Below the pieces are notes generated by a model. That model saw only the letters and a list, made by a program, of their open reading frames with translations, was not told the DNA's origin and did no database searches. Made by a program: the position numbers and the translations under genes. This document shows positions 26,721 through 61,894 of a stretch of DNA of 64,000 nt, piece by piece. Each line of letters begins with the position of its first letter. Position 1 is the first letter of the stretch. The DNA comes from Mesostigma viride (Eukaryota > Streptophyta > Mesostigmatophyceae > Mesostigmatales > Mesostigmataceae), in contig RPFO01000041.1 of NCBI GenBank assembly GCA_009746045.1, positions 8,431,841-8,495,840 on the forward strand, written 5' to 3'.

Positions 26721-29326
26721 AGACCAGGCCTTGCTTCAGCTTGGGTGTCCCCAGTGGGTTGTTTGACCAAAGTGCCAAGTGGTGACTGGTGCTTACTGGT
26801 TGACAACCGGTCCTTCAGGGTTAGGTACACCCTCCTGGACAGGAGTTGGTGTGGAATGCACTCCTACCAGCAGAGAATCCTGCCTGGCCCTCCCCATGGG
26901 GTTCAGAAGAGTCGCCAGGACTTAAGTCGACGCCTTTGGCCTCAAACAGTTAGGCCATGCAAGGGCAACCCGAATGCTGGTTCTTACAGGTTGCTGTACA
27001 TATGTTTTCTAGTGCTTGTTTCCAACCTGTTGCTAATAATGAACCTGGTTGTGTGACCATGTGGTACATGGTTGCCAGGGAGCCACATTCTGGGTTATAT
27101 AATGCTTGAATACAACATAATCGTGTCACTCTCATGTTGTTCTCATGGTTTCGGCTTTTTTCTTGTAAACGTTGGCTGAGCGCCGACGGCTGAGGCTATG
27201 GCGGTACAAGAAGTGCCTCACCAGCCTTGCGCTCAGCATGGGTGCGGGGCTAAAATTTGTTAACCAAATTTCCGGCATCCATGATCCCTGGCTGCTTAAG
27301 GCGGTTGGGATTCATGGCTGCCATTGGCCCGGAATTAATGTCCGGGTGATCGGGGTTTAAATGCGAAGCGGGGGCTGATGCATTATTTAATGGCTGGTTT
27401 GTTTGAAAGAAACGGCCAGCTGGCCGGGTTGGGCAAGGGCTAGCTTGCTTGATGGTTCCGTACCTGGGGATGCTTGCGCCTCGGGTTGGGCTGTCGGCAG
27501 GCTGGCCTGCCTTTGAGTTGTCTCGTACCTGGAAATGCTTGCATTCCGGGTTGGGCTTGGCTTGAGGGCCGCCGCGGCTCGGGGGGGTAAAAAATTTAAG
27601 TCACCGTTGTGGGACACGGAGCCTCGGCGCAGGAGGCAAGGGCTGAAAACCAACTTGATTTCGTAATCAGTGGTATTTCCACTTTTTTGTACGGAAGGAG
27701 TGTTTATGTGCTCGGCACTAGGTTGGTTGCTCTTCAAAAAAGTTGTAAACTGGGCGTCGGCTGGAATCAGCGGCGCCAGTCAGCAGCTTTTGCTTTGACT
27801 TTGTGTTCCGCGACAGCACCCCTTAGCGGACCAGAGAAGAGGTCGGCAACGAGGTCAGCGGGGGCCCCCGAGTGGGGTCAAAAATGCGAGCTGTGTCGAT
27901 TGACAGTGCATGAATTTTTGTGCATTCACAGTCGCTGGGAATTAAATCTGTTTTCTGGCAACGGAGAGCGCCCATCGCGACAGGACAGCTTTTGACGGGA
28001 AAGGAAATGGTGCTTCTTTAGCGGACCGGAGGGCCAGGAAGGGGAGGTTGGGTAATCGCGAGCCATGCCTAAGGAGTTCTTAATAGCGGTTCTGTAACCG
28101 CTACCTGTCTGTATGCATCTACTTATTGTTTTAACAAAGATGCTGGTGACTATGGTGAGCAAACGGGTGTATGAATCGGATTTCTTTGAAAAGAGTTTCT
28201 CGAAGTGAGGCGGGGAATAAGGCCGCTCACGGGAGCCGCCTGGATGGTCGGCTGAACCGGGCGGGTTTGGCAGATGTAACCGGATTTGGCTAATGGCTGG
28301 CGACCTGGAATTGTTAGTAGGGGCAGTGGCCCTATTGTGCTACAATCTCGAAACAATCTTATGCTTAAAGTTTGACAGGGCCGGGTTTGTTGAACCGGTT
28401 TGTTGAATGATAATTAGAACCTTTCGGAAAGGGTATTTGATTGGTTGTTGTTTTTGTGGTACGGTAGGTGTCGCTACATTCTCAGGTTGGCGTGTTAAGT
28501 TAAGCTCGGTTGCTGATGTCAGCCCCGTGCTAGGGCAGTTTGACTACTTTGGCGGCGTAGTGACATTGTTGTGGTCTTTTTTCTTGTCCCACCCACCCAC
28601 CCTCTTTGGTGGCCTGGTCTGCGCGGGTAATCGCGAGCCATGCCTAAGGAGTTCTTAATAGCGGTTCTGTAACCGCTACCTGTCTGTATGCATCTACTTA
28701 TTGTTTTAACAAAGATGCTGGTGACTATGGTGAGCAAACGGGTGTATGAAGTAATATTTGTCTTGTTCAAAGTTCCAGGTCACCTATAAACCTGGAGGTT
28801 GGGGTGGGGTTCAATTCCCCAGCAGAGCCACAGCCTGGCATGGGTGATTCCTGGGCTTAACACCCAGTGATGACATGGGCTCCCCAATAAGGCAGTATTT
28901 GCATGGGTGCTACCTAAGTCTCTTTGAGCATAAAAAGGGAAAGCTTGGCCAAGGCGGGCGCCATAAGAACGGGCGCCTGTGATAACTGTGAAAGATCAGG
29001 AACTCACAATAATACGTTCTTGGCATCCTTTAATCCCAGCCATTGGACTAGGTAATGTGACTTGACTTTAATCTAGCACCAAGTTCCCAAGGAAAGGTTG
29101 GGAGCTGACCAAGGGGTCAGGGGATAACCTGGGGTGACCTCTGATTCACTGGCCAGTATGATTCACTGGTCCAAGGGCATATATGTTGTTACCCAAAAGG
29201 AGGCAGGACCCTGGGCCCTAGCAGGTCTGATCAACCTCAAGGGACCAAGTGGTCTGTGGCTGAGTGGGCACAAGCAAGGTTAGGCTTGTTTCAAGCTGGT
29301 CCAGCTCCAAAAGAAGAAAGGGTTGG
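26721..29326. other. 3' non-coding region, second copy
   Basis: It is almost base-for-base the same as 14694-17298 (one extra G in a G run near 27585 is the clearest difference). It carries the same 126-bp direct repeats, T-arm relic and polypurine tract, here ending at 29326 against a complete 3' LTR. Confidence 0.8.
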
Positions 29327-29973
29327 AGTTAGCATTTTGGGCAACCAATATGCTAAGTGGATGCAGTTTGGAAAGACCTTTCCAACGCCGTGCTGACCGC
29401 CTGAAACAGACAAGGGACGAGAAAGATATGAGGTCCCGAAGTCCTAGCCGTCCGGGGCCGACTAGGGTGCAGTCCTCTGGTATAGTGGGCAGGACACGTG
29501 GCAGGCCGTGCCTGCACAGGCTTAGCCTGACTATCACGTGACTGTGGTCCACGTAGACCAGGAGGAGCAGCAGCCTGTGACTGGTGGGGTACTGGAGCTG
29601 GCACAGGACTGCAAGGATACTAGACCTTGCAGGCTTGTGACAGGTCCTGTACTTCCTAGGTTGCAGAGTCTAGGCAAATCCAGCTCGTCCTGGCTCTGCA
29701 CTGATGCCAGTGGACGTTGGGGATTTGCTTGCACGCCTGCACGTGCCTCGTCACGCCGATGGGAACGAGGAACAACGCAAAGGATATAGCTTGGTCATGG
29801 GGGATGACCAGCTATCTTGGCAAGCACGAACCGTGGGCGCCCTCATTGGACGTGGAAGTGACCACCGTGGTCGTGACTTGGTGCACGGGTTAAAAGGTTG
29901 CTGCCTGCAACTTTGGCTCATCCCGTTGTGCGTGAAAGACCAGGAGCTCACGCTCTGGGCTTTGTTGCTAACT
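29327..29973 (+). repeat. 3' LTR (647 bp)
   Basis: It begins AGTTAGCATTTTGGG after the purine run and ends GTTGCTAACT. The next five bases, TATAC, repeat the five bases before the 5' LTR at 7071-7075, defining the end of the insertion. It lacks the 2-bp TA present near 7212 in the 5' LTR. Confidence 0.88.
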
Positions 29974-34545: not shown

Positions 34546-36152
34546 TTAGGGCAACCTTGAGAAGTGGGGTCTGTGCATCCTGGGCGACAATTTCCAAGGG
34601 TCGTTGCAGCTAGCGCAGTTGCAAATGCCATGGCCTGGCCGAACACCGTAAACTGACCGACGTGATACCTTGGCAGCATTTTGCAGTCGACCTGACCGTT
34701 GGTGCTTGACAACACTTTGGCTGACAGGTCGCTGTCCACGTCGTTGTCGGCTCGCTCGAGGCCTCGCGCCAGCACCGGACTTGGCAGTCCAGGACTTGGA
34801 AAAATTTGGCAGCTTGGTCGATTTCGCCCTCGCGTCACGAATTTGTTCCCCCTCAGTTAGGCTGGCAGCGTTCGAGCGCCGCGCCTTTGGTCTGGTCGCC
34901 GGACTTTGGTTACTAGCACCAGTATCACCTGGTATGCTGGCGGCGACAACGCGCTCCGCCTGCACTGGGCTGTTCTGGACCGCAGTTTCTGGAAGTACTT
35001 CAGCGTCTGACACAGACTTCTCCATTGCGCTGGAAACTTCTCGAATTGGCGTGAACTTCCACTGGGCCGGCGCAGAGTATATAAAGCCACGCAGTGTGCG
35101 AGTAATGCCCAGTAGGCCGCCCCCGATCCCGCATACACGGGCAAGCATGGCCAGTATGACCGTTAGGCCCACGGCCAGCCACTCCGCCGCGTGTCCCGAG
35201 GCACGTGAGATGCTGCGCTCGCTGCTCGCCATTTTCTGCCCTTGACAGGCAGCGTCGTTCTTGAAGCTCGTCGCCGACGATTTCAGCTCTGGGATGGCGT
35301 CCATCGCTGCGTCCGCACCGCGCGCGGGCAAAAAGTAGGCATTGTTCCTCGTCACGATGCTGCAGGGCCTGCTGTTCAGCACAGCAACCTGCTTGGCGAG
35401 GTCGACGTTGTGGCCATCCTTGACGAGCTGGCCGACAGATAAAAGTCGGGTGCTCAGCTTTGGAACGAGCAGCGCGTTTTGGAGGTGCACGTCTGCCTCC
35501 TGGCCCGGCAGCTTCAGCTTGACAGTCCCGATGGCTGTCGCCTTCAGTTGGCCGCCTGAGCCGGCGATTTCCCTGTCATGAGGGTGCAGGCACACGAAGT
35601 CCGACGGGCATGGCGTCATGTGACAGCTCGCTGCGGAATCCAGCACCCAGCTGGTCGGTGCTTTCTTTTCATACTGCGTGAGTGCAGCAGCATCCGACGG
35701 CGATGGCGACTCGGCGATGGTGGCGAAGACGAAGCCGGACCGCTCCGCAGCCTCCTCGGTGATACGCGCCTCGCTGGCACCTGGTGAGTGCTCCTTTCTC
35801 GCTTGGTTCCGTCGCGTTGCCTTGTTCTTGCGTTCTTGCTTCAGCTCCGGATGCTTCTCCCAGCACTGGGTGTCCACGTGCCCGGCCTTCTTGCAGTAAT
35901 TGCACCGCCTCTTTCCTCCACTTTTCTTCGTAGTAGTGTGGAAAACCTGGCCGTTAGGGGAGCCCTCCTTCTTTGCTTGAGCAGAACGCCTTCCGTGCAG
36001 TAGCTCCTCCGCCTCCAGCAGCGCAGTCTTGACCTCCTTTAGCGAATCCTCCTCTCCAGTTAGGACCTTGACCAGGTCACAATAGGCCGATGCTAAGGCC
36101 TTCAACACAGCCTTGATTTCTTCCCATTTCCTCAGAGACCGCCCATCAAACG
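34546..36152 (-). CDS. Gag-protease-like protein with a C-terminal membrane segment (main part)
   Basis: The frame is open from the nested insertion (36152) to the stop at 34546, about 535 codons; its first 19 codons lie at 44323-44267. Counting from the codon at 36108, it has a helical Gag region, a zinc knuckle CNYCKKAGHVDTQC (69-82, CX2CX4HX4C), and a copia-type protease with WVLDSAASCHMT (Asp157; the usual Gly is Ala) through LVPKLSTRLLSVGQLVKDG. Instead of integrase there follows a hydrophobic stretch WLAVGLTVILAMLARVCGIG (about 310-329) and a basic C-terminus with many Arg/Lys. The membrane-like segment is unexpected in a Gag-Pol protein; it could be an env-like or captured piece, or chance coding of non-pol DNA. 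The gene is split by the nested element. Confidence 0.75.
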
Positions 36153-36157
36153 TTGTG

Positions 36158-36936
36158 TGTAACGACTAAAAATGATCATCAACATCATCCACAGTCCAAT
36201 ATGAAAGATCTTTTACCTGGGTTGCTTTCCTGAGTCGCAGAACTTCAAGTATCCGAGCAACGTTGAGATGGAGATTCCACAGCACGTGATTTAGGGAATC
36301 ACAACCCCTTGTAGACACAAAGACAAGCTCGTGTATAGACGACCTCTGTGGAACTGAAGGACGTCTATAGCCAAGGGGCTCTTATGGATGGACAACAAAG
36401 ACAAGCTTTATTATACCATGGTGAATCAAAACCAACGTAGCAACAATGGCGACCCCACGTCATTGATATCGACGTGCTTGTCGAACTTGCTCCAACCTTA
36501 GCCTGAAGAGAACCAATCAGAACCATGGGATTCTATACAAGATCTTCGTATCCATCCTAGTCACACAGAACAGAACAACACCACACACAGCCTGGCAGAA
36601 TCTTTCCATGAGATCCTAAATCTGTCGTAAGCACTGAAGTCCCAAAGGAGCATTTAAGACTCAATAGTACCAACTAACAAACTACAACCCCACGTGGATC
36701 AGGCCACGACCAATGAGGGCTCCTATCAGTAGTATCAGCCAACAAACTACAACCCTACGTGGATCAGGCCACGACCAATGAGGGTTCCTATCAGTTGGTT
36801 GACAAAGTATCAGCTCCAAGTACCGTCGTCTTAGAAACCTCATAACTTTCTCAATACTGATCCAAAAGTCCTCAAATAAAAGCCAAACATTCACAAAACA
36901 AAGGATGTAACAACAAAGTCATTTTTGCTTGTTACA
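36158..36936 (-). repeat. 3' LTR of the nested element (779 bp)
   Basis: It matches 43487-44265 with three substitutions by eye. Internally it has a tandem pair of about 60-bp units containing AACAAACTACAACCC and CACGTGGATCAGGCCACG (about 36670-36790). Its minus-strand polypurine tract lies at about 36937-36951. Confidence 0.9.
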
Positions 36937-46215: not shown

Positions 46216-48759
46216 ATGTCCAACGTGCCGAGGGAACAGGCCATTGAGCCTTCGCAAAGCCAAAGCTCGCAGCCGCAGCTTCGGGTAGGAGCCCCGGAGC
46301 GAACACGACCTTTTCATCCCTACGCTCATCCGAGCACTGCATCGACCTTTGTCCAGGCGGCGTACCTGGCAAGGGGGCTGGCGAAGAAAGGTTGGGTGGC
46401 AGTTTGTGGAACTGCAGCAGGGCCGGCGGCGAGCGACCCCATTGTGATGCAGATTGAGGCTTCGACAGCTCCCGGCGAATTGTCGCGAGAGGCCGTCGAA
46501 AAGTTTGTGTCGCTAAGGGACGAGCTGTCCTCGACGATTTACGGTCTGGAGGTGGCTCATCAGGGCGGGCACGTGACCGTGTCGCAGCTGGATTTGGCGC
46601 GGGAGGCACTGGGCCAGATAGTGGCCATTGGACTGGGAGCAGCGCGACTGTTCAACCATCAGGTGGCAACTTCTGTGCTGGGCGCGGGAGTTGAAGTCCC
46701 GGACGTGATCAGGCAAGCGCAGGCGCGCGAGGTCGACAACCCCTGGTCGTCGGCAGAGGTGGTTTCCCAGACGTGCGAACACCTCGTGAACATTCTTTTG
46801 CAGGAGTCACGGGGCAACGCCGATCAGTGATGATTCATACGCCGTATTATACGCCGTATTTAGCGTATTATGCGCGATACGCAAGCGGCGCGTACGAAAA
46901 TGGGGTACTTTCATACGCAACGCGTATTTTTGCGCATTTTTGCGTATTTTCGCGTATTTTTGGCATATTTTTGGCTTACGAGGTGGGTGCATTTGCTTGC
47001 CTAGACTGCGGCGCGCCGACCTGTAGTAGGAACAAATAATTGCGTGATGAGCTAGCTAGTGTATAGTGCACTAAAGCTAAAAGCGCGTTCATTGTGACTT
47101 GTGAAGGCGGGAAGGTGAAGGCGGGAAGGCTGAAGATTCATCATCAAGAGGGTGATAAGCAACAGTATATTTGGAAATAAACGTACACCTATTTATCTGG
47201 ATCAAGAAGGTGATAAGGTGTGCCAGCAACGTCGTGGTCGTCTGGCACCTAGATCGTAGCATATCGACATCCAGGCATGGCTGACACGTGAGTCAATGGA
47301 ACACGATGATGATGTGCGGCCCGATGAAGAAGAGGCCACATCCGAAACTGTCTGGACATACATTAGCAAAGAGCGCATCCTCAAGAATCGGCAGCAGACA
47401 AATAACTACTACATGGATGATGGAGTACTCCGTTACAGGCTGCTGGTCGAGCAGGCGGAGAAGGAAAGCAATACCAGGAAGAGGAAGGCGACTAGTGACG
47501 CCAAGAAGCAGGCTGATGTGCGGGCGGCACTTAAAGACAGGCTTGCAGACGTTGTAGAAACCGACGCCTCTAACTGGGTGTCCCCTCATGCCAGCAACAC
47601 CTCGGGGCGCGCTGCTGGGGCGGCTGGGCCAAGCGGATCATCAAAGGGCCAATCCACCGACGGTAATTTGCCCGCACCTTATGGGCTCAGCAAAGAGCAG
47701 CTGGACGAGGAGCTGTGCGAGGCATTCATTTGCGCCTTTCAATGCCATCGACGCCCTTCAATGTCATCGACACCTCGGGGCAATGTATAGTGCATGCATA
47801 TCTTGAGTTCTACAAATTTATTATCCTTTCCAGTGAGTTGTGCATTGATACTGGTATTGATACTTAGTTGCATGTTGTCTCGATTTTGAAGAGAAACTAT
47901 CAAGTTAGACCGTTAGAAACTAAGCTTGTATTTAGGTAGTGGTGGCAATGCCAAAGGTCATGCTATATATGTCATGTATAGGCAAAAGGTATGGAAAAAC
48001 ACCAGCAGACTATGCTTGGTTGCTCAGAATGTTGAAAACCCCTCAAAATCATGCCAAAAAAGGGGTTTTCAACGGTTAGCGTACGATCAGCGTATAATAC
48101 ATTATACACCGCGTATTATACATTATACACCTGGGGCCGCGTACGACGCGTATCGCGTATGAATCATCACTGACGCCGATCGGTGGGTAATAACCACACG
48201 ACCATTTGGGATTTGGTCAACACTCGACACACCGCGGGCGGCGGAACCAGAAGCACACGATCCAGTGGTCGAGGTCATCACGGGTCGGGAGGTAACGCCA
48301 GAAGACTTCCATTACCAATTCGTTGATCAGCCAGAGGGGATCATCGAACGTTCATCTCAGCAGATAGACAAAGGCGACGGTACCGTAGAGGGGTACGCTG
48401 CACGACGTCGTGCTGAGCTGCACGTCCCGCAAGAGTCCGAACACGACTACGGTGGTCGTGGGGCCTGCAACGACAAGCGGGGTGGTGGGACGCGGTGGGT
48501 GAGGAACCTTGAGTGGGATCGCAAGAGTGGGAGCGAGCCCCGGATCCCAGTGGAGAAATCTGCAGACGGGCGACCCGTTAGCAGAGTGCTAGGACCCTAC
48601 GCCGACGGGGAGGACGCCGCTGGCAGCGACGAGGAGCGGCCAGAGACGCCCATCGCAGCCACTGCTCAAGAACGGGAGCTGGAGGCAGCGAACCAAGCAG
48701 GTGCTGAGTCGGTAGCTGGGACGGTGCCCACGGCATCTTCCAGCAACACCAGTGCTTGA
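46216..48759 (+). CDS. ORF1 protein, interrupted by a hAT element
   Basis: The first part, 46216-46824 (203 codons), and the second, 48181-48759, join in phase across the hAT insertion, giving about 395 residues. It aligns with the 383-residue ORF1 at 7757: STFVQAAYLARGLA, SLRDELSSTIYGLEVAHQGG, CEHLVNILLQESRG, WVITTRPFGIWSTL, VEVITGREVTPEDFHYQFVD, GGGTRWVRNLEW and VSRVLGPY are shared, and the tail is acidic. Many differences between the copies are conservative, which suggests selection on the protein. The N-terminus (Ser/Gln/Pro-rich) and C-terminus vary most. Function is unknown; no known fold is recognised. Confidence 0.75.
46825..48172 (+). mobile_element. hAT transposon, non-autonomous (1,348 bp)
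   Basis: Perfect 18-bp inverted ends, CAGTGATGATTCATACGC and its complement, and an 8-bp target duplication ACGCCGAT (46817-46824 and 48173-48180) are diagnostic of the hAT superfamily. Subterminal regions are crowded with GCGTATT/AATACGC words (46838-46960 and 48080-48160), likely transposase-binding repeats. No hAT dimerisation domain or BED finger is seen. It carries one plausible ORF of 165 codons. Confidence 0.9.
47296..47790 (+). CDS. Unidentified 164-residue protein inside the hAT element
   Basis: The ATG at 47296 gives MEHDDDVRPDEEEATSE and a mixed-charge helical segment (YRLLVEQAEKESNTRKRKA...KKQADVRAALKDRL), then a Ser/Gly/Ala-rich linker and YGLSKEQLDEELCEAF. No transposase motif is visible. 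It may be a diverged fragment of the transposase N-terminus, a captured host exon, or a chance frame. A poly-purine, charged composition unlike the AT-rich ends of the element argues for former coding use. Confidence 0.4.
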   Translation: MEHDDDVRPDEEEATSETVWTYISKERILKNRQQTNNYYMDDGVLRYRLLVEQAEKESNTRKRKATSDAKKQADVRAALKDRLADVVETDASNWVSPHASNTSGRAAGAAGPSGSSKGQSTDGNLPAPYGLSKEQLDEELCEAFICAFQCHRRPSMSSTPRGNV

Positions 48760-48812
48760 GTCAGTTCTTCCTTTATCCTTCGCCTTTATTGTTGTGTCCC
48801 CACTTGTATATA

Positions 48813-50168
48813 ATGCCTCGTGGCAAACCGGGCGACGGGGACAAGGGCGAGGCGGCGGCACCGGCTGGGGAGAGCCAGGAGCCTAGGAAGGACAAGGAGG
48901 CGCTGGTGGGAGAGGCGATCCCAGCCAGCGACGGCGATGGGGGAAAGCGGCCAGGGAGCAAGCGGCGACACGAAGACTCGGTGGAGGAGGCGCGCAAGGC
49001 GCGGGCGACAGGGCCATCTGATGCAATAACGGTGGCGAATGGGCAACCAGCCGTGGAGAAGCGTAAGAGGGACACCTCCGCTGACGGCAATGGTAAGAGG
49101 CTTCATGTGGATGTGCTCTCCCCTGTGCCTGCTGGACCAAGTGGTGCTGTTGCTGTGACACCCGCTGTGGTGGAGCCAGTAAAGGCGCTGCCAGGGTCGA
49201 GGCCTCACATGAGTGCTGTCACTGTTATGAATGGACAAAAGCCTCTTAACCCACCACTAGCACAGGAAGCTTTAGACAAGTGGCTAGAGGACATGGAGCT
49301 TGTTGTGTTCTCCGTGGACCCCACTGTCAACCTAGTGCAAGTGTTCCACTCGTCCACGTGCAACAGGGACTCATCAGAGCGTGTCAGGGAGAAGGCTAGG
49401 ACTGCTGTCAAGGATAAGTTAACCTGGGCACAGTTCCTGGATGGGTTGAGGGAGGAGTTCTCTGACAAGGTTATCAACCTCACCAACTATTATAAACATC
49501 AGTATGACACCTTTGAGATAGTGGGTCCTGTGGCAGAGGAATGGGCTAGGCTCAACCGTATCAGGGACAAGGGGGCCAAGTATGGCTTCCTGGTCACAGA
49601 TAGGGCCTTGGCAGACTATTTCCTGGACCGTATGGGTCTGAGTGTGGATGGTAGGAATGGTGCCCGCATGTTTCTTAACCAGACTGATGGCTCCTTGCGT
49701 GCTCTGGAGCTTGTAATCCTCAGCATAAGGATGCCAGAACCTGCCTGCAAGGCTATCCAGTCCCATGGCAGCAATGCCACCTCCGCTGTGCAGGGCCAAG
49801 GTGATGTCCCCGGGTACCCAGCCCGTGATGGGGCAAGGCCCAACAAGCGTAAGCGCTTCAGGCGCCAGAGGCAGGGGTCTCAGGGTGGCAAGGGTGCAGG
49901 TTCCCAAGGAGGGGTTGGGGGCCAGCAAGCTGGTGGTCAGCAGGGTAAGGGTGGCCAAGGGCAAGGCAAGGGCCAAGCTCAAGGCAACCAGGGCAAGCAG
50001 GGTGGGCAGCCTCAGGGAGGCCAGGGGAAGCCTGGCAAGGGTGGGGCTGGGTCTGGGAAGAAGGGTGGAGCATGTTTTGTATGTGGCAAGGAGGGTCACT
50101 GGCGTCGTGAGTGCCCTGACAGGAAGGCCAAGCCTGCTGGGGCAGGGGGCCAGTCTGGGCAGCAGTGA
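48813..50168 (+). CDS. Gag polyprotein (451 aa), ending at a UGA-CUAG leaky-stop context
   Basis: The ATG at 48813 begins MPRGKPGDGDKGEAAAPAG. Domains in order: a charged, Lys/Arg-rich N-terminus with KRPGSKRRHED (1-130), a helical capsid-like domain (about 145-330; ALDKWLEDMELVVFSVDPTV, WAQFLDGLREEFSDKV, ADYFLDRMGLSVDGRNGARM), a basic NKRKRFRRQRQG stretch, a Gly/Gln/Lys low-complexity linker, and the zinc knuckle CFVCGKEGHWRREC (about 421-434). Gag forms the particle and binds RNA. It starts 53 bp after ORF1 stops. The stop TGA at 50166-50168 is followed by CTAG, and pol continues in the same frame, so a Gag-Pol fusion by readthrough is likely. Confidence 0.88.
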   Translation: MPRGKPGDGDKGEAAAPAGESQEPRKDKEALVGEAIPASDGDGGKRPGSKRRHEDSVEEARKARATGPSDAITVANGQPAVEKRKRDTSADGNGKRLHVDVLSPVPAGPSGAVAVTPAVVEPVKALPGSRPHMSAVTVMNGQKPLNPPLAQEALDKWLEDMELVVFSVDPTVNLVQVFHSSTCNRDSSERVREKARTAVKDKLTWAQFLDGLREEFSDKVINLTNYYKHQYDTFEIVGPVAEEWARLNRIRDKGAKYGFLVTDRALADYFLDRMGLSVDGRNGARMFLNQTDGSLRALELVILSIRMPEPACKAIQSHGSNATSAVQGQGDVPGYPARDGARPNKRKRFRRQRQGSQGGKGAGSQGGVGGQQAGGQQGKGGQGQGKGQAQGNQGKQGGQPQGGQGKPGKGGAGSGKKGGACFVCGKEGHWRRECPDRKAKPAGAGGQSGQQ

Positions 50169-50172
50169 CTAG
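50166..50172 (+). promoter_or_regulatory. Candidate stop-codon readthrough site UGA CUA G
   Basis: Gag ends CAG CAG TGA CTA GCT. The following codons stay open in the same frame into integrase, with no other stop and no ATG in the first stretch. The same seven bases and phase occur at 10322-10328. UGA followed by CUAG is a documented efficient readthrough context in eukaryotes; that it acts here is inferred. Confidence 0.65.
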
Positions 50173-53100
50173 CTACATCATCCCCTGTAAATAGTCAATC
50201 ACCCCCTGGGGAAGGTGTGCTGGATGTACATAAGGACGGGGGTGTGCCCCTTGTGCAGCACCAAGGGTGTAAGGATGTTGTTCTTCCACTGGATTGCAAT
50301 AACAATGCTGCAGCTGAATTCCCTATGCCTCATGCAGGTGGTGGGTCTCCAGCAGGTGCTGGCCTGAAGGGCCAAGGGGCCTTGCTGGAAGGGCCTGGAG
50401 CGGTCCAGGGTGCAGGGCCTGGCTTGGGGCGTCAGGATGGCCTGCAGGGAAGCCCTGGAACCTCAGGAGTGGATCATGTGTCCCCACACACGGTTCAGAC
50501 GTCTCGCCAGGTCAGTACTGAGAGAGTGCTGAGCTATGCTGAGACTGGCCATAGGTTGCATCACATCTTTGGACATTCTGGGCAGGCAGCAATGTTTGCT
50601 TGGAAGCTAGGTAGGGAGCCTTTGTGGGAGGCCTGCCAGGCTGCTGCTGAGAACTGTGGTTGCCAGGAGAATGCTGTTCACCCACCTCAGTCCCATGCTA
50701 GGGAGCCTGCTAGGGAGCGTGGCGACATCCAGATGGATATCCAGCATATCAGGGGCTTGTATATATTGGTGGGGGTGGACAGGTTCAGCAGATACAGACT
50801 GATAGACGTTCTGCCTGGTATGCAGGAGCACCACTTGTTGTTGGGTATGCAGGCCCTGATCCCAGGCTTTGGGGTGTGCAAGAGTGTGCAGGCAGACTTA
50901 CAGTTTGACTGTTTGCTCAAGCATCAGGACCAGCTGCCTTGTAAGCTGGTAGTAGTCCCCAGGGAGAGTCATGGGCAGCAAGGGGCTGTAGAGAGATCCA
51001 TACGTGAGGTGAAGACAGTGGTGCTAGCAGCAGAGTCAGTGCCACTTGTGGCATCTGCCTTAGAAAGGGCAGCCTGGTGTAAGGGGATAGAAGAGCAGCT
51101 GAACCACAGGGTTAACTATTACTTTGATGGTGTGGCTGTCTCTCCCCTGGCCCTGCAGTATAGCTTACTGCCTGAGAACGTGGTGCAGGCCAGTCTTAGG
51201 AAGGCAGATAGGTTATTTGCCCAGCTGAGACGTAAGGACAAGAACTGGAATGTGCTGAGGCCTCAGGTGGGGCTGAAGGTCAGGATGTGGAAGGAACCAT
51301 CTATTCCAGGCAAGCGGGGGAAGTGGCAGGATGGGGTTGTCACTCGTGTGGAAGAAGCTAACAGATCTTGCCTGGTGGCTTTGGAAAAGGATCCAAGGCA
51401 CGTGTACAGGTTGTCCTGGGCTCATGTCAAGGAAAGAAGGCCACATGCAATCAGTGGCCTGCAGACGGGCCAGGCCCTCCCAGCTGGGTTGAGGAGGGCT
51501 CCAGGCCAGAGCCAGGCAGCAGCAGCTAACAATCCTCTGGTGGTGGATGATGGTCTGTCCCTGCTGGAAGATGACGAGCAGGAGGAGGCTGCTGAAGCAA
51601 CTGTCACAAGGCCAGAGGGGACGGGGCAGCCACCTAAGGCCCGGGGGCCTCTCATGGCGGACGTCATCCGAGCACTCATGCGCAGCAAACATGATCCCAA
51701 GGTATCCAAGCTCACGGGGCGGGGGTCGTGCTGGGCAGCTACAATGGAGGTAGATACCAATTCACAGGTGTCTGTCATCAGGGAAGAGGATGCTGTAGGC
51801 TTACAGATGTCCCATCCCAGTTGCCTTGCTGTGTCTGATTTCTCAGGAAAGGTGTCCATGAAGATCCTAGGGGAAGTGAGTGTGCCTATCTTAGGGGTGC
51901 CCACCACGTTCTGTGTGGTAGAGGGCTATCAGGGGCCTGCCATTCTGGGTCAGAACTTCTTGTGCATGCCAGGGGTTACTTTGACCTCTGATGAGTTGGC
52001 ACTAGAAGGCAAGGGCAGCCTCCCCCTTGAAAGATATCACTATTCCCAGGGTCTTGCAGTGGCGGTGAAGGCTGTTAAGAGTCAGCCAGCTGAGGGTCCT
52101 CAAGGTCAGGAGCCCATAGCTGAGGACCTGTTGATCATCCCAACCACCTTTGATCCACGGCAGTTAGGGGTAAACAGGTACCAGATAGCTGCTCACAGTC
52201 CTATTCCCTGGCGCCAGCTAGTCGAGATGATGCAAAGCCCCAAGATGGCTAAGGCATGGACTCTTGGCTTTGTTGCTTCTGGGCATGAGTGGATAGTTTC
52301 CAACTGTGCAGAACCTGTGGATGAGCTGCCAGAAGTTCACCAACTGCTCAGATTGATGTTTGTCCTCAAGCTCAAGGAGGTAGATGGTGTCCAGGTGCCA
52401 CATGTCAGACCAGTTGTAACCGAGTATCATGGCACTGGCCAGTTGTTAGATGAGGAGCTCTATACTCCAGGGATGCTGCATGACACGTGGAGGATTCTGC
52501 TGTGCATATTTCTGTCTTTTCTGGTTAAGGGTGTGCCCTATAGCTCTGTGCTGATTGATTTCAAGAGGGCTTTTCTCAAGGGTGACCAAGATCAGGCTAG
52601 GCAGACTTGCATGGAGAGATATCCCTCCTTTCTTTGTGACTGTACCTGCTGTATGGAGAGCAGAGATAAAGGCCAGGTACCTGAGAATTCTGAAAGGGTT
52701 GGAAGGTCTCAGGTCCAGTCCCATTATCTGGAGAAAGAGCCTAGAGAAATTCTTGAAGAATACTTGTGGGTTTTCTGTGTCTCCAGTGGATCCCTGTTTG
52801 TTCCAAGGGTCCCACAATGGTCTTCCTGTCTTTGCCTCACTGCATGGTGATGACCTGCACCTCATAGGTCCACCAGACTGGGTTGAGGCTGTCTTGGCTA
52901 AGATCCAGAAGCGGTTTGAGCTGGGTAAGATACAGCACATGGTGGAGAATGAGCCTATGGTCTTCTGTGGCATGCAGGCTACGTTGTTCCAAGCCAAGGG
53001 CTCGTGGTTCATCAGGATGGAGGGTGGTAAGGACTACCCACAGCAGATTGTAGATGCATTGCAGGAGCCCATCACGCAGGCTAGGTGTGCTACCATCAGG

Positions 53101-53216
53101 GGCATGCTGGCATGGCTTGCAAGTATATGTGCCCCTGACTTGCTGGTCTTGAGTCGACTTACTGATTCCCAGCTGGTTGAGGTGGGTGCTGAGAGTGTGG
53201 TGCAGGCTGTCATGAT
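50169..53216 (+). pseudogene. Pol: integrase-protease-RT-RNase H, one frameshift
   Basis: The frame is in phase with gag. Numbering from the GTG at 50217: zinc-binding start HHIFGH (115-120) with C147/C149; integrase catalytic candidates D174, D227 and E259; basic tail KVRMWKEPSIPGKRGKW; acidic linker; MADVIRALMRSKHD; retropepsin-like VDTNSQVSV (Asp513; Asn replaces Gly) with AILGQNFLC (about 575); then copia-type RT with DFKRAFLKG. A 4-bp insertion near 52610 moves the rest (GLRSSPIIW, HGDD at 52843-52854, IRGMLAWLASICAPDLL) to another frame. The frame is then cut by the insertion at 53222 and resumes at 61727 with the RNase H motif LYVDSSMD. Integrase precedes protease, unlike known copia order. 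Confidence 0.85.
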
Positions 53217-53221
53217 GTCTC

Positions 53222-53676
53222 AGTTGGATGGAGACTAGGGACGACGAACAACTGCGAAAGCTGAGAGCGAATGATGATTGTATTACAATAATACAATGAG
53301 AGAGCGATGAAAGCTGAGGGCTCAGAATGGAACTGGGCAGACTCGGGTGCTGTGGCACTCCCCAGTGCTACACCTATATGCCTATGGCGGTGCTACCTGC
53401 AGCACACGACCAGTGGACAAGTGTACACTGCAATGCCATGCGACCACGTCACTAGCATCCAGCTAAGACTCGGCCCGTCAGGCCCGGCTACACCAGACCT
53501 GGCGGGTCGAGCTAGCACCTAGGAACAGTCTGGCACTAACCGCACATCGGTCCACATGACACCTCAGTACCGTACACCCTGCCGTACTGTACTGAGGTGT
53601 CCCGCTCAGCCGCGGTAGGCAATACGCGGCGCGCAGGCCGGAAATCCGTGTGTCAGCCTAAGCATCTCATCTAACT
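53222..53676 (-). repeat. 3' LTR (455 bp)
   Basis: It is identical by eye to 61267-61721. On the minus strand it reads AGTTAGATG...CATCCAACT, 9-bp inverted ends with one mismatch. The inner flank on the minus strand is GAAAGGAAAACATAATGGG, a modest polypurine tract. Confidence 0.92.
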
Positions 53677-54742
53677 CCCATTATGTTTTCCTTTCAGGTT
53701 GAAGGCTAGCGACTTCAAGCCTGACCCTGCCCAGCTAGGAGACTGACTCCAAGCTGACTGAGGTGCTGAGCAACTGACACCCATACTGCAACATCTGGAC
53801 TGAAAAAGATGGGCCCCAGAACTCGTGCAATACTTGTGATGGCATCACGTTTAGCTCAACATGCCCGGGGAGTTCCTCCTCCTCGCGAGCTCACAAGGGA
53901 GATAGCTATGCCTGTCTGCCTATCCAGGGAGTGCACCACCAGCCAAGAGAGCCCTTGTAAAAAAAATGCCAAGGTAACCGTTTAAGAGGTTCCATGTTGT
54001 TCCATCATCATCGCCCACTCAGAGAGAAAATACCCAGCCAGGCTGGGTCAACTGAGCTCAGGTTACCTGCAACCTGAGGAGTGACAGTGGACAGGTTTAT
54101 TGCACCCTGCACTGTCCATGTTGTACCTGCACAACATGTGAGGACCAGCCACCCCTGCCCTGCACAGAGGGGCTGAAGTCCGAGTGACAGGTGACAGGAC
54201 TATGACATCCTGGACCTGGCCACATTGCACCTGCACAACGTGGGAGACCAGCCACCCCTGCCCTGCACATGGGTGACTGAAGTCCTGGTGACAGGTGACA
54301 GGAATATTTCATCCTGCACCTGTGCTGAGCACGTTGTACTAGACAACATGACAGCACCCATGCCTTTACTGCCACTGAACAGTAAGGCCAGGTGGCCCAG
54401 GATAGCCACAGTGAACTGGGGTCCTGGGTAACCACCTGTCAAGGGAGCTTTGACCCTCCACTTGAATGGGGGCACCTGAGCCACTGAGCTCAAGGCCATT
54501 CCACCAAGGCATACGCCCTAGGGAATAAAGGTGTGAGATACATCCCATGCCCACCTATGAAGGTGTGCATAACGAAATTCCATGGTGTTGAGAAAATCAA
54601 AACAGATTTTATTGGGCATAGGGCACGCAGATGTATGAAAACAGACTCCAACCAACCCCCCTTGCTGGAAGCCACAACCTACCCCTTGGACCTGCCCAAG
54701 GGGTACTGGGTGACCTAGGCGGCCCTGGTGAACAGGACCCTG
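53677..54742 (-). other. 3' non-coding region with tandem repeats
   Basis: There is no gene. About two and a half copies of a roughly 110-bp unit (about 54105-54345) share ACCAGCCACCCCTGCCCTGC and GTGACAGGTGACAGGA. An AT-rich stretch with a possible minus-strand polyadenylation context lies near 54590-54615. Confidence 0.6.
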
Positions 54743-57700
54743 CTAGGCGTCCCCCCTATGGGGCAGGGTTGCCTGCTTGCCATAGGGGTTCATCAAGTGG
54801 TACAACAGCTGATATTGTTCAGCTGCCTGCTGAGGCACTTTAGTGAGTGCATCAGCAGCGTTGTGTTTGTCCTCCACGTGACGGGTGGACTCCCAGTAGG
54901 TGGACTCCTGTTTCAGGACCACCCAGTCAAGATCAGTGTGGACAGCATAGGGGTTAGCAAGGAAACTGAGGACTGACTGACTGTCAGTGAGCAAGTGTGC
55001 CACCACCCCAGCATTGCTGCCTGCTTGCATCTGCAACCAAACCAGCACATGATTCAAGTACCTGGCATGAAGCACTGCTGACACCACTGCCCTGCACTCA
55101 GCAGCATTGCTGCTGACAGCCTTGCGTCTATGCAACCGGCTGTACCATGAAATGAGAGACAAGGGTGCATCATCATTCTGCACAAAATACAAGCCTGACT
55201 CCCTTGCCTGCATCTTGGTAATCTGCCTGGACTCCATGGAACTATCCATCATAGCTTGGATGTGAATGGTTTTGTGGAGATCCAAGGAGTGCAAGATAAG
55301 GGGAGGGCCCTCCTGGAGAGTTTTGGTGATGGCTTTGTGACCTACTTGCATCAAGACATCATCATCAACTCTGCTAACCACAGCCAGGTGAGGTGCACAC
55401 GTTGAGCACAACCACCCCAGCTTGCCTCTAATGGTAGGACAGGCTCCAGGTTTGATTTTTGTTTGCAAAACCTCCAAGCAGCTGTGCATGTAATCATTGG
55501 GAGAGTAGAGTGCACACACCCACTGGTTTTGATGCTGCTGGAGTTGTAACATTGTGCCACAAAATTTTATGGCAGTGGTGCCCAGCTCTACTTGCTTGCC
55601 AATCTCAAAATGCTGTGACACTTGTTGAATAAAATCATCCACAGCACGCCTTGGCCCAGCAATCAGCTGATCATCCCCATGCCACACAAAGGTGAGAATG
55701 CCATGAGGGTGTGGGACCACAAAGAAGCAAGGGTCTATGTCATCATATCTAGCCCCTAACTTTTCAAACACAGCCTGAGCTGACATCCTGAAAATGCGAG
55801 GAGCTGATTGCAGCCCTTCAACACCTATGTTAGCTTTCAGGTACTGCTGAGGGATGTGTTTTGCCCAAACTCTGGGAGTGGAGACTACGTACACCTGACC
55901 ATGCCACACTTGTTGTGCTATCTCAGGTGAGCCTTTCAGGAAAGCCCTTTTAATGTCTGTAGCCTTACAGATATAGTCATCCCCATCATTGAGATGACCC
56001 ACAAAGACAGACAGCAAGATTTTTAGGGATGTTTGCTGAATGCCTGGCGTGTACAACTCTGCCTCTGTCAGATCAGTGGTGCCCTTGAACTCTGTCACAC
56101 AAGGTCTAGCATGAAAGATGACTGACCCATCTGCTGCTGGCTTATGTTTACACACAAACTTCAGGCGCAAGTGCTTGCACCCTGCAGGCTTTTTGTCAAT
56201 AGGTGTGACAGGGGGAGTATGAGAAGGACTAAGAGGATCTGGCACTACCCATTCTTCCCTGGCCTTGTTAAAGGCCTCCACCCATTTTAGGAATCCTATG
56301 TGTGTGCGACAGTCTTGCTCTATCTGTTCATAAGAAAGAGGAGACATTTTAGCCACATCATGCTTGCCCAATCCAAATGAGTTGGGATGAAGTTTTTGGT
56401 TGTGAACCAGGTCTGCCACACAGGGTTCTTGCCCTGGGGCATACTTGGGTGTAGCAAATTTTACAGAAGCAATGTTGGTGTTAAGAAGTTTTTCAAGAGA
56501 AATTTTGAAATGATTCAGATCAACACCACCCATGTCCTGGATGGATAGTCTATCACTGGATATGAGGACACCAGGGTAACAGAGAAAAGGATCCCCCAAC
56601 AAAGCATTCCCTTTATAACCTTCCAATACCTGAAAAGGAGTGGGGATACCGAGTATAGTCAACATGACCTGACCTAATACCTTGAGGGATGACTGCCCTG
56701 AGAAATCAGCCACATGGTGCCAGGGTGAAGGTTCCAAAGGCAAATGGGGCACAGCCAGGGCACTGATAATGCTGACCTGGGCTTGTGTGTCCACTGCAAC
56801 CATAAATGGGCTATTGTCATTCTGCCCAACCTTCCCCACCTTAGCTGATCCTGCAGCAGTTTGAGCTTTGGCTCTATGAGCTGCTTGTAAAATGCGAACA
56901 GCGTCTGCTAGGCTGCGTTTGGAAGGTGCAGCTAGTGGCTGAGCTATGTTCACACTTGTAGAGGTGATAGGTTGCTGATCACCTGTTTTGCCAATGTGAC
57001 CCTCTGCTGCAGGGGGCCAATCCTGCAGTGACTGCCTGCAATCATCAAGGGTGACCTGGGTGTCACAGTGGGTGTGGCTCTCACACTCACCAGTGGGTGT
57101 TCCAAACAACCACTCACTGGGCAACGCTGGGATGCCAGGCAACTGTACAGGGCTGTCGGCCAACAGCTCTTCCTCCTCTGCCACGTCTGACACAGTTGGA
57201 AAATACAATTTCATCCTGTGAGGTGAACACCTGTGAATTTTTCCCGTGTCATTGTGTTTAACTAACACTGTCCTGCCAGTGGTGTTAAACTTTAGGATGG
57301 TGGCTGGCCCATGCCAGGTACCCACCTTGCCTAGTCCCGACTCCTTGTAGAATAGGACCTGATCCCCTTCTCTGAAGGTGGGACGTGGATGCTTTGCATC
57401 CTTGACAGCTAACCTGCTAGCTGTCTGTGCTCGCTGTGCGTTGTAGAGGGCTAGTACCTCAGGTGGATAAATGCCTGCATGCAATCCATCTGGTGTAATG
57501 ACCACCCCTTGTGGGGTTTTCATGAGTGGCCTCCTGTTGAGGACTTGGCACAACCTGGTGGACCACAGAGCTCTGTCAGCATAGGACCCACTGTCAGCCA
57601 GCAGATTGCCATCTTCTTTGGCTACAAGGGTTTTAATGGACCTGATGGCCCTTTCAATAATGCCTTGCCTCTCATGATCTTCTAGCCCAGCCAGATCAAT

Positions 57701-58504
57701 AGCCTCACACCCTGGTTCATTGGCAAGACATGTGAACTGCTGATCCAGTAACAATGCCTCCACAGGGTAGTACCTGGCCTGAGCAATCAAGAGAGCCCTG
57801 AGCAACTGTGTCTTGTCCATTCCAGGTAATGGTTCAATGGTTGTGTACCTTGACCATGCATCTTTAAGTGCCAAGTAAGATTGTCCTTTGATATGAAAGA
57901 CATCTCCTACCACCCTGCCCTTGCTCTTAGGTGGGGTAGCTACATGCCACTTAGGGGGTTTGGGTGCATTGAACTGACAATGCTGGCAGTGGGATCTGAC
58001 CACCTGGCATGCACGTCTGAGTGCTGCCCCCCCTATTGCTGCTGCCACCACCTCTGCACTCACTTCATGCCCATAAAGGAAATGCAACTGCAAAGCAAGC
58101 TCCTGAAAACTGATCTGAGCATCCTCTGCTGGGGACACTCTGCACACCTTGGGAACCATAGATGTGAAGGTTGGTTTAGAGACATAATCTTCTGAAACCA
58201 GCTGTAGCACCTTTCCAGAACTGCTCACTGCTCTGACAGTGGGGCATGCAGAAGAAGAAGGTGAAGCAGGCACACTCAAGCCAGCATGAGAGGGAGACTC
58301 ACACTTCTTGCCGTAAGGAGGCCGCTTGCAGTCCTTGGGGTCACCGTGGGGCGGCCCGTGGCACTTGTGGCACAGGACGTCCAAATGCCCCAGCTCGTCC
58401 ACGTTCTTGCGGCAGGTGGGCCGCAGGTGGTACTTCATGCCACAGCGGGTGCACCGCTGAGAAGACTTGTCCTCCTTGTCCTGCTTCTTGTTGTTGTTGT
58501 TGTT

Positions 58505-58552
<48 letters not shown>

Positions 58553-59521
58553 ACTGTTGTTGTTGTTGTTGCTGGAGCTGCCCCCCTTGGAGGGAGACTG
58601 CCCCTTACCCTTGCCCTTGCCCCAGCCCCTGCCCTTGCCCTTGCCCTTGCCCTTGCCCTTGCCCTTGCCCTTAAACATTTGTCCCAGCAGGGACTTGACT
58701 TCTGCCATAGTGACAGGTCTCTTGCTCCTGTCTTCCCTCTCCCTATCCTCCTCCTCCCTCTCTTCCCCCCTGACCCTCTTTACAGAGGTGCCCATGGCCC
58801 CCTGGCTAAGGGGAGCCAAGGCCAGCTTGATATAATCCAATGCCTCCTTCATGTCCTCCCAGTACTTTGCCATTCCTGTTGCAAGCATGGCGTAGGTGTT
58901 TTTGTCAAGTTTGAGTTTCTCAAGGAAGGAACGCAGCAAGAACTTGTGATCTAGCTGCTGGACATCAGGACGTGCTTTGATGGCTAGCTCATATTTCTTT
59001 GTCTCAGCCACATAGTCCACTGATGTGACCCTGTATTCCTCTACCCACCTGAATGCCCCATAGATGTCCACAGATGAGGGGGTGGAGAGGAGGTCAGTTA
59101 GCTCCTTCATGAAAGCCTCCCAAACTGCCCTAGCCTGCGTGTCCTGCCACTTGGGATACCTACGCTGGAAGACAAGAATGAGATTCTGAATCTGAGAAGA
59201 GGACTGATGGTAAAAATCCCCCTGCATGAGAGATCCAAACCAATTCTTGACATTCAGTTCCTCCCTAGCCAGCTGCAGAGAGAGAAGTGCATGATTCCCC
59301 TGCTCCCTAGTATACCCCTCAGGCAGCCCCCTGACATTAATCCTATCCACAGGACGGTTTTCATTGTAAGTGGGCAACCTAGAGGGGGATGCAGGGGGAG
59401 AGGGAGAAGATGGTGTTGCTGCTGCAGCATTCACAGGAGAGACCTGCTGAGAGGGAAGTGCTACTTGAGTGAGCTGAGCAGGATGGGCAAACATGGGCTG
59501 TGTAGGAGGGTTAGACAACAT
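54743..59521 (-). CDS. Intact Gag-Pol polyprotein (about 1,592 aa): Gag-integrase-protease-RT-RNase H
   Basis: The first ATG of the open frame is at 59521. The Gag region has a Pro-rich start, a helical capsid-like domain (WFGSLMQGDFYHQSSSQI, WEAFMKELTDLL), a Gly-Lys repeat, poly-Asn (58490-58578) and two Cys/His clusters (CTRCGMKYHLRPTC; CHKCHGPPHGDPKDC). Integrase follows: HFLYGH near 58080, CQHC at 57974-57988, candidate D (GDVFH), D (LLLDQQF) and E (GIIERAIR, near 57652), and a GPF/Y-like tail (FYKESGLGKVGTWHGPATIL). Then retropepsin-like VDTQAQVSII near 56790 with NALLGDPFLC, copia RT with TDIKRAFLKG and HGDD (55670-55681), and RNase H (MMDSSMES, AAECRAV, LLTDSQSV, HNAADALTK). All catalytic motifs are readable. 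Protease between integrase and RT is unusual. Confidence 0.92.
58490..58675 (-). repeat. Coding microsatellites: poly-Asn and Gly-Lys repeat
   Basis: An AAC/AAT trinucleotide run (58490-58578) encodes about 30 Asn with one Ser interruption, and a GGCAAG hexamer run (about 58605-58675) encodes alternating Gly-Lys. Both lie between capsid-like domain and zinc knuckles. The first would be length-variable between copies; the second makes a basic RNA-binding-like segment. Confidence 0.9.
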
Positions 59522-61221
59522 AGGGGTGGGCTGGTGGGGGTGTGAGTGTGTGTCACTTCCCGCCTCCTGCTGCGGGCCTCCTCCCAATCATGGAAGGTGG
59601 GAGAGAGGGACACGTCATCGTCAGTAGGGTTAGTAAGATTGTGATGCAACCAGGTAGGCAGAGTTAGCCACCTACCCGCCCCTCTCAGGATGGCGTTGTG
59701 TAGGAGCTCCAGCAAACGCACCAGACGCACCCTGCTGCCCTGCACCCTCCTCCCTGAGAGGAGAGCCTGCAGGGCAGGCAGCAGGTCGTCGCACACCCTG
59801 CGTGTGCCCTCTTGGAGGTTGGGCAGGCCCAGGATGTGCGTGATGATTGCACACACCAGGCTGCCCGCCTCCGCGACGTGCATCTGCTGGCTCCTGTCGG
59901 CCAGCCCACGGAAGGAGGCTGTGGCTGTCTGTATGGCACGCCACACGGCCTCATCACCAGGGTGATGAAGTCGCGACCTTGCAGGTCGCCCTCCAGCAGT
60001 GCTGGTTGCTGCCCAGCTGCGGTGGGACCCTGGGCCCCTCCGGCCCTGCCAGGGACTTGTCCTTGTGCGACTAGAGGGGGCCTGCCCCCCAGAGCCGCTG
60101 GAGGTGCCCGTGACACCCTCCATGGGGGCTGCATCCCCCGCCAGCGCCGGAGGCGCCGGCGTCGCTGCCGGGGTCCCTGCGACCCCGGGCGCTTGTGTCG
60201 CCGCCGGGGTCCCTGCGACCCCGGTGGCCTCCTCAGCCACCTGGCCCCCCACGCTGGGCGGGGGAGCCTGCGGCTGAGGTTGGACCCTCTGACCTGCCAG
60301 AGGGTCCTGGGTGGCTTCACCACCCATGGGCGTGTTGGGGGCGTCTGCCGCCCCGCGCCCGTCGCAGGCGGCATCGCAGCCGCCTCACGCCTATCCGGGC
60401 CCCAGCCAACTGGCGTGACTTGGGGCCACGGCCCCAACGGAGTCAGCGCGATCTCTGTCTGGCGACCACGCGCAGCGCCTCTCTCTGGCGCTGCCTGGAC
60501 GCCCACTGATCAACAGTGCCGGGGTTGTGCCTCGGCCGATTGGCGAAACAGTACAGCCAAACTGCCACCTGAACCAGTGGGACTGCATCCTAAGACGCCC
60601 CTCGATCAGCGTGTGCACCCGATGAACCTCTATCGCGTGGATCTCCTCATCTGGAAGCAACTGAAAACGTTGAGTAAGATCCGGCCGTTCACCGAAATGA
60701 ACGCCGGGATGTCGTCCTCCCCAAGGGGGAGAAAATGGGGTGGGCGCCCGAACGCGACCGGGGGCGGAACATGTTCCCCATACCGGTCAATGTCCATGGT
60801 GGCCATCTGTCGGCCCACGGAAAGGTTGCCAGACGTCGCAGGTGTCTGCGACGAAAGCTCAAGCGAAGGCCGAGGCCTCGCAGGCTGCACCTCGCCATCC
60901 TCCTCGAGGAATCACTCCGCTCACGACCCCCGTCACCTGCGACGGGGGAACGTCGTGCCCGGGGGACCTGCCCCCCAGGTGCCATGGCGGACGAACCGCC
61001 AGTGGCAAACGGCCGACCGCTCGCCATCCCCGGGCGCCGGGCCCCACCTGCGGGCCCCGACGCCTGGGTTGGTCAGCGACCACCGTGCGGAAGGTGACGT
61101 TGGGCGTCACCCTCGCATCGTTGGTGGAGGGCGTGCCCTCCGGCGAAAGGCGGGGTGAGGTGCGCCTGGCAGGCGCCTTCCCCTTGTTGTTGTTGCCGTT
61201 GTTGCCGTTGTTGGAAGCCAT
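59461..61221 (-). pseudogene. ORF1 region of the second family, frameshifted
   Basis: The ATG at 61221 follows the 5' LTR by 46 bp and reads MASNNGNNGNNNKGKAPARR. Coding-like sequence then moves between frames: FLPLGEDDIPAFISVNGR (frame ending 60630), PDEEIHAIEVHRVHTLIEG and RLRMQSHWFRWQFGCTVSPI (frame ending 60391), and a Pro/Ala-rich then helical section WRAIQTATASFRGLADRSQQ, VCAIITHILGLPNLQEGTR and LVRLLELLHNAIL (60327-59461). At least two frameshifts are needed, so it is decayed or partly misread although gag-pol is intact. Its end overlaps gag by 61 bp in another frame. It has no visible sequence similarity to ORF1 of the other family, but the position is the same. Confidence 0.6.
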
Positions 61222-61266
61222 ATCTTTTTTTTTGCTTGTAAAAAAAATATCGAACTTTTCAGTCCA

Positions 61267-61721
61267 AGTTGGATGGAGACTAGGGACGACGAACAACTGC
61301 GAAAGCTGAGAGCGAATGATGATTGTATTACAATAATACAATGAGAGAGCGATGAAAGCTGAGGGCTCAGAATGGAACTGGGCAGACTCGGGTGCTGTGG
61401 CACTCCCCAGTGCTACACCTATATGCCTATGGCGGTGCTACCTGCAGCACACGACCAGTGGACAAGTGTACACTGCAATGCCATGCGACCACGTCACTAG
61501 CATCCAGCTAAGACTCGGCCCGTCAGGCCCGGCTACACCAGACCTGGCGGGTCGAGCTAGCACCTAGGAACAGTCTGGCACTAACCGCACATCGGTCCAC
61601 ATGACACCTCAGTACCGTACACCCTGCCGTACTGTACTGAGGTGTCCCGCTCAGCCGCGGTAGGCAATACGCGGCGCGCAGGCCGGAAATCCGTGTGTCA
61701 GCCTAAGCATCTCATCTAACT
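61267..61721 (-). repeat. 5' LTR (455 bp)
   Basis: This is the upstream LTR in the minus-strand direction; TGGACTGAAAAGTTCG follows at once and could be a tRNA primer site because it begins TGG. GTCTC at 61722-61726 is the target duplication. Confidence 0.92.
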
Positions 61722-61726
61722 GTCTC

Positions 61727-61894
61727 CCCCTCTTATACTGGGTCCTGTGGATTTGTACAAGCCCCTTGACATGGTTCTCTATGTGGACAGTTCTATGGAT
61801 AATAGGAAGGTCACAGAGGTCAGGGGCAGGGCAGCAGCATTAGTTACCCTGGAGCAAGATCACACCTCACTTGTTACCTGGTACAGTCGGTTGC
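61727..61894 (+). pseudogene. RNase H fragment of the interrupted pol
   Basis: It resumes the pol of 50169-53216 after the insertion: DLYKPLDMVLYVDSSMDNRK and TSLVTWYSRL, about 55 codons with the first RNase H Asp. Homology ends at 61894 against C-rich repeat; the remaining RNase H, 3' region and LTR are missing. Confidence 0.85.

Follow-up and report, generated by a model that had tools for sequence, protein, structure and literature searches.

The stretch of Mesostigma viride DNA analysed here (GenBank assembly GCA_009746045.1, contig RPFO01000041.1, positions 8,431,841 to 8,495,840 of the forward strand; 64,000 nucleotides, hereafter the window), on which all results rest, contains several long terminal repeat (LTR) retrotransposons that are nested in each other. 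Two diverged families of these, referred to as family 1 and family 2, exhibit the order Gag, integrase, protease-like domain, reverse transcriptase (RT) and RNase H, and not the order Gag, protease, integrase, RT and RNase H that PMC2774666 and PMC6317226 give as the rule for Ty1/copia elements. Family 2 is represented by a complete element, which splits copy C of family 1 into two parts (48726-53221 and 61722-61894); the other copies of family 1 are A, B and a partial copy D. An earlier note had claimed the unusual order for four loci, and it is indeed found in the intact frame of family 2 and, up to the RT, in copy C. The loci at 10325 and 22379 both belong to family 1 (copies A and B) and to one insertion (7076-29973), such that the four loci represent two families.

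The family 2 element possesses LTRs of 455 bp each, which are 100% identical between the two ends, and is flanked on both sides by GTCTC (as read on the plus strand), a target duplication of 5 bp; the uninterrupted target site is kept in copies A and B of family 1. Paired LTRs together with a target-site duplication identify it as an LTR retrotransposon. Zinc knuckles, integrase, retropepsin-like domain, RT and RNase H follow each other in one frame: the HHCC motif of the integrase begins at residue 501 and its D-D-E residues are 562, 615 and 645, the D-T of the protease-like domain occupies residues 933-934 and the LLG residues 996-998, and the catalytic box of the RT, HGDD, is situated at 55681-55670. 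By eye, a GPY/F-like C-terminus (TWHGPATI) is found on the integrase. The Pfam scan gave neither a zf-CCHC match for the zinc knuckles nor an RNase H match for the last domain. Copy C shares the domain order of family 2 as far as the RT, with about 30% identity over 750 columns across integrase, protease-like domain and the beginning of the RT; in family 1, copies A and B show the motifs of RT and RNase H most clearly.

Concerning the RT, the Pfam family RVT_2, i.e., the type of Ty1/copia, is matched by all three rows of the alignment, including both rows of family 1: family 2 reaches 40.0 bits and exceeds the cut-off of 31.6, and copies A and B reach 23.5 and 24.1 bits, which is under it. When the RT alignment was searched against the PDB, no reverse transcriptase was matched, the single match being to an enzyme at chance level (E 0.41). 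Judged from its sequence, the RT of both families is copia-type. The integrase of both families matches Pfam rve below the cut-off, and among the 60 PDB matches listed (of 67), 59 are named integrase or Pol (best E 0.023), the remaining one being a ribosomal protein.

Between integrase and RT, at the positions where the earlier note had correctly placed a candidate protease (56600-56830 and 51640-52000), both families exhibit a pair of motifs at retropepsin spacing: D-T-Q/N, at 56794-56783 in family 2 and at 51750-51761 in copy C, and LLG/ILG, at 56605-56582 and 51939-51962, respectively. The latter corresponds to the hydrophobic-hydrophobic-Gly (ILG) motif of retropepsins and reads ALLGDPFL in family 2 and AILGQNFL in copy C. 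The former stands in the place of the D-T/S-G catalytic loop of retropepsins (clan AA), a triplet that is absent from the integrase-RT intervals of family 2 and copy C. Five copies of the loop exist in all, D-T-Q in family 2 and D-T-N in the four copies of family 1, one of which has a single-base insertion within the motif. An aspartic-protease pattern that leaves free the glycine of the loop and one position next to it is present in both integrase-RT intervals; when each interval was shuffled 50000 times, 19 shuffles contained it in either case. These counts serve as a guide only, the pattern having been written after the sequences had been seen.

Searches with the domain also point to a retropepsin, as the earlier note had proposed, albeit at sub-threshold scores and with the altered loop. 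The sole Pfam family matched by both members is gag-asp_proteas (E 0.084 and 0.06), which is the top match for family 2; in NCBIfam, the protease-like domain of neither family was matched. A PDB search with E up to 10 returned four matches, every one of them to the retropepsin ASPRV1 (E 0.21-0.24), with an alignment that begins ahead of the D-T/S loop and extends as far as the ILG motif. A profile of both families scores 14.2 bits against the ASPRV1 fragment, which was equalled by none of 20000 shuffles (top shuffle 13.4), and the score of family 2 alone was reached by none of 2000. The shared Pfam family, the spacing of the motif pair and the course of the ASPRV1 alignment all argue against some other beta-rich linker domain that resembles a protease by chance; such a domain, with which the sub-threshold Pfam and PDB scores, the non-canonical loop and the unusable structure models (see below) would be compatible, appears very improbable.

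The identity between the families amounts to 42/92 over the whole domain and 35/72 in its core, compared with 17/92 and 23/100 in the linkers on either side, 82/205 in the RT, 41/91 in the N-terminal part of the RT and 70/203 in the integrase core, the bounds of these segments having been chosen by ourselves. On these counts, the core of the domain is conserved at the level of the N-terminal part of the RT and above the whole RT, the integrase core and the linkers. Since the protease-like domain is conserved level with the RT and above the linkers, it is under constraint.

The loop can be read in two ways: its retained D and T suggest that the site is still used, whereas the loss of the glycine suggests that it may not be. 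This glycine, Gly27 in HIV-1 protease, is listed in PMC11313796 as ligand-contacting in HIV-1 protease and pepsin. With D-T-Q/N instead of D-T/S-G, protease activity is therefore uncertain, and the domain might be a retropepsin-derived pseudoprotease, which would have kept the fold, lost catalysis with the glycine and remained as a dimerisation or spacer module, whereas processing would be left to a host protease or to other elements in trans. The replacement of the triplet in both families is consistent with this, and a second, copia-type protease gene is present in the same window. However, the domain equals the RT in conservation between the families, D and T are both kept, and the family 2 copy, with its identical LTRs, moved recently, such that we consider a pseudoprotease unlikely.

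Several observations weigh against an ILG-type retropepsin-like domain at this place. Family 2 has Gln and family 1 has Asn where the loop glycine would stand, and no protease match reaches its curated cut-off (PF13975 on family 2: 13.9 bits, cut-off 28.2). The domain of family 2 also weakly matches the unrelated TAP35_44 (E 0.23), and family 1 alone aligns less well with the ASPRV1 fragment, 3 of 2000 shuffles scoring as high. AlphaFold models from two-sequence alignments were too poor for use (mean pLDDT 37.4 and 42.3), and the family 1 copies are frameshifted. Finally, no relative was found outside the window in the viral and prokaryotic contig collections scanned, where pattern matches occurred and none was confirmed by tblastn, a result that says little on eukaryotes.

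Concerning the region upstream of the integrase, no protease is detectable in either family, which agrees with the earlier note. Only 76 residues separate the second zinc knuckle of family 2 from the integrase HHCC, which leaves no room for a protease, and D[ST]G does not occur in the forward frames from the 5' LTR through to the HHCC. In copy C, the protease pattern is absent from the 129 residues of the second frame ahead of the HHCC. The stated lack of D-T/S-G between zinc knuckle and integrase thus holds for family 2, whereas the three frames 5' of the integrase of family 1 do contain such triplets (three in copy C, one in A and one in B). None of them is protease-like: those of A and B and one of C stand immediately after a stop codon, another in C meets a stop three residues on, the last reads PDSGHW, and in no case does Ala or Ser come next in the hydrophobic setting expected of a protease loop. 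Reading three frames by eye, for three family 1 copies in the Gag-integrase gap and for family 2 in its 5' and 3' regions, revealed no second protease. The coding strands of both families were also scanned with [AILVFM][AILVFMC]D[ST][GAQN][AS], which found nothing in family 1 and, in family 2, the motif downstream of the integrase and a D-S-G within the integrase (LADSGS, 57601), where family 1 is gapped; as this pattern misses the MEVDTN of family 1, D[ST]G alone was scanned upstream of the integrase as well.

A protease absent upstream and present downstream of the integrase, in elements with a copia-type RT, might also result from a simple relocation of the copia-type protease, and the earlier note had considered the protease to be moved. 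A third family in the window permits a comparison: there, as a positive control, the Pfam scan gives Pol_BBD (1.6e-14) after the zinc knuckle, and the protease has an LLS ending (RLLSVGQL). With this copia protease, the protease-like domains align at chance level only (their scores are equalled by 154 and 423 of 2000 shuffles), whereas the ASPRV1 fragment aligns with it better than chance (11/2000). Pol_BBD is matched in neither family, and their ending is of the LLG/ILG type; according to PMC2774666, LLS is kept by copia proteases with very few exceptions and ILG is predominant in all others. The ending and the chance-level alignment speak against a move, and simple relocation is in our view quite improbable. 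Because the domain ends in the non-copia ILG and not in LLS, a replacement of the protease, or an integrase inserted upstream of a foreign protease, would fit the sequences better.

Both families share further peculiarities. Their LTRs start with AGTTAG and end with AACT and do not possess the TG..CA ends that are usual, although not strictly required, for Ty1/copia; family 3 has TGTT..AACA. A target duplication of 5 bp is usual for copia. If the 5' end of the LTRs were set one base shorter, the duplication would be 6 bp long (GAGACA, TATACA); we prefer the 5-bp reading, since each LTR start inspected has an A in front of GTTAG, apart from the one near 2886, where GTTAG is missing, and the CT at the 3' end is unaffected by this choice. 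The RT box reads HGDD in both families, Y-x-D-D being its usual form.

Despite their general similarity to Ty1/copia (Pseudoviridae-type) elements, with which they share the RVT_2 RT, an integrase situated before RT and RNase H, the 5-bp target duplication and a CCHC Gag, the two families differ from them in several features: They lack a protease between Gag and integrase, their protease-like domain is situated between integrase and RT, and they have ILG instead of LLS, D-T-Q/N in the loop, HGDD instead of Y-x-D-D and AG..CT instead of TG..CA. According to PMC2774666, all known Ty1/copia genomes have their integrase downstream of the protease. The diatom CoDi elements, which like the GalEa-like and red-algal (PyRE10G) ones are also copia elements, several of them algal, and which were compared by description only, are described as keeping the usual order of protease, integrase, RT and RNase H (PMC2806351). 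A changed position of the integrase, resulting in a copia-like order, is likewise reported for Gmr1-type elements; however, these belong to Ty3/gypsy, and their integrase remains downstream of the protease (PMC2774666). With ILG-type clan AA retropepsins (gag-asp_proteas, PF13975; ASPRV1), the domain shares the loop VD[TS]x[AS]QVS[IV] followed by hydrophobic-hydrophobic-Gly, whereas it differs in the Gln or Asn at the loop glycine and in its situation within a copia-type Pol. String searches of the open-licence literature for the order Gag, integrase, protease, RT and RNase H found no paper. Rfam and tRNA scans gave no match, and a pattern for the dinoflagellate spliced leader was matched nowhere either.

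Features of the two families and of the family 3 protease in the window
Feature	Position	Strand	Basis
Family 2 element, complete, nested in family 1 copy C	53222..61721	-	LTR pair, target duplication, empty site in copies A and B
Family 2 5' LTR, AGTTAGATG...CATCCAACT	61267..61721	-	
Family 2 3' LTR, same sequence as 5' LTR	53222..53676	-	
Candidate primer-binding-site-like TGGACTGAAAAG, abutting family 2 5' LTR	61255..61266	-	sequence
Purine-rich tract preceding family 2 3' LTR, broken by CATAAT	53677..53695	-	sequence
Family 2 Gag-Pol open reading frame, intact, 1614 aa	54743..59587	-	
Family 2 zinc knuckles, CX2CX4HX4C then CX2CX4HX5C, from residue 379	58328..58453	-	motif by eye
Family 2 integrase: HHCC, D (GDVFHI), D (LLLDQQF), E (IIERAIR)	57188..58114	-	motifs
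Family 2 retropepsin-like domain, VDTQAQVSII ... ALLGDPFL, residues about 927-1020	56528..56809	-	
Family 2 copia-type RT (RVT_2), residues 1132-1331	55553..56197	-	
Family 2 RNase H: DSSM, AECRA, TDSQS, ADALTK	54788..55267	-	motifs by eye
Family 1 copy C Gag frame with zinc knuckle, terminating in UGA	48708..50168	+	zf-CCHC 27 bits, cut-off 20.8
Family 1 Gag stop, context UGA CUAG, in frame with pol	50166..50172	+	
Family 1 copy C integrase	50523..51440	+	
Family 1 copy C retropepsin-like domain, VDTNSQVSVI ... AILGQNFL	51711..52034	+	
Family 1 copy C RT, start approximate, frameshifted near 52600, cut by family 2 insertion	52320..53221	+	
Family 1 copy C, remainder beyond family 2 insertion	61722..61894	+	
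Single family 1 insertion enclosing copies A, D and B	7076..29973	+	LTR ends AGTTAGC...GCTAACT, TATAC at both flanks
VDTN in copy A, frameshift after	12688..12699	+	
VDTN in copy B, frameshift after	24726..24737	+	
Family 3 Gag, zinc knuckle, copia-type protease (WVLDSAASCHMT ... RLLSVGQL, Pol_BBD)	34546..36165	-	

Concerning family 1, the shared domain order up to the RT lies at 50169-52850 (plus) in copy C, the RT of which changes frame after about 52604. At the end of gag, copies A (10322), B (22376) and C all have UGA CUAG, which in A and C is in frame with pol; these copies being related, this counts as one observation. PMC12817336 describes UGA CUAG as a high-readthrough motif, in the context of human disease. 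The insertion that contains copies A, D and B owes part of its length to a tandem duplication of about 12 kb within it. Compared with copy C, copy D (18550-20205) exhibits 140 gap openings and 46 mismatches, and copy A 2 and 39, respectively, which suggests for copy D uncorrected long-read errors more than age. Next to this insertion, a 1.8-kb unit with terminal direct repeats of 371 bp (99.7%) occupies 29974-31803; as parts of it recur at 6320-7076, such a unit seems to have been the target of the insertion. An array of 15.5 units of 30 bp at 3998-4464 adjoins a stretch resembling a family 1 LTR (2885-3989).

Between the 5' LTR and the main frame of family 2, a region of 1.7 kb (59588-61266, minus) contains coding-looking broken frames, which begin near 61222 with MASNNGNNGNNNKG; the Pfam scan of two of them gave no match, and the region is possibly a further gene or a spliced leader. 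The Gag-protease frame of family 3, the protease loop of which reads D-S-A, lies in an element at 32589-45214 with LTRs of 808 bp (99.9% identical), TGTT..AACA ends and the duplication AGGAT; this element may be non-autonomous, since the frame has no RT match. Nested in it is a second element (36158-44266; 780-bp LTRs, 99.6%; duplication TTGTG), which includes at 38837-39214 (minus) what by eye looks like a Ty3-type RT-RNase H fragment.

From the sequences, we lean towards regarding both families as elements with copia-type RT and RNase H in which the copia protease would have been lost and an ILG-type retropepsin-like domain be present instead, between integrase and RT. The order of the domains, the identical LTRs, the target duplication, the D-D-E of the integrase and the conservation of D-T and ILG can be read directly from the sequences, whereas the retropepsin fold, a catalytic role of the D-T-Q/N loop, the readthrough and the history of replacement are inferred. 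That they form a distinct lineage is plausible. A more specific history, in which a separate lineage with the order Gag, integrase, protease, RT and RNase H arose when the copia protease was lost and a non-copia one was then captured, and possesses a working D-T-Q/N protease and an integrase handling AG..CT ends, is possible but rather doubtful.

Most likely, the replication cycle is the ordinary copy-and-paste one, with an unusual layout of Pol. The genomic RNA would give rise to Gag and Gag-Pol, in family 1 via readthrough of UGA-CUAG and in family 2 as a fused frame; the Pol subunits would dimerise by the protease domain, and the polyprotein would then be cleaved in the particles. RT and RNase H would copy the RNA into cDNA, the insertion of which by the integrase would produce the 5-bp duplications and the AG..CT ends of the LTRs.

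The order of the Pol domains serves to classify LTR retrotransposons and is relied upon in surveys. The plant survey of PMC6317226 discarded every element of unexpected order as a likely mis-prediction, and such order-based filters may hide elements like those described here. With the integrase before the protease in an intact, recent element, and with a diverged second family in its support, the order rule would be shown to have exceptions, and the D-T-Q/N loop leads to the testable question of whether an aspartic protease can function without the loop glycine. If confirmed in more genomes, the arrangement would change ideas of how such elements can be built.

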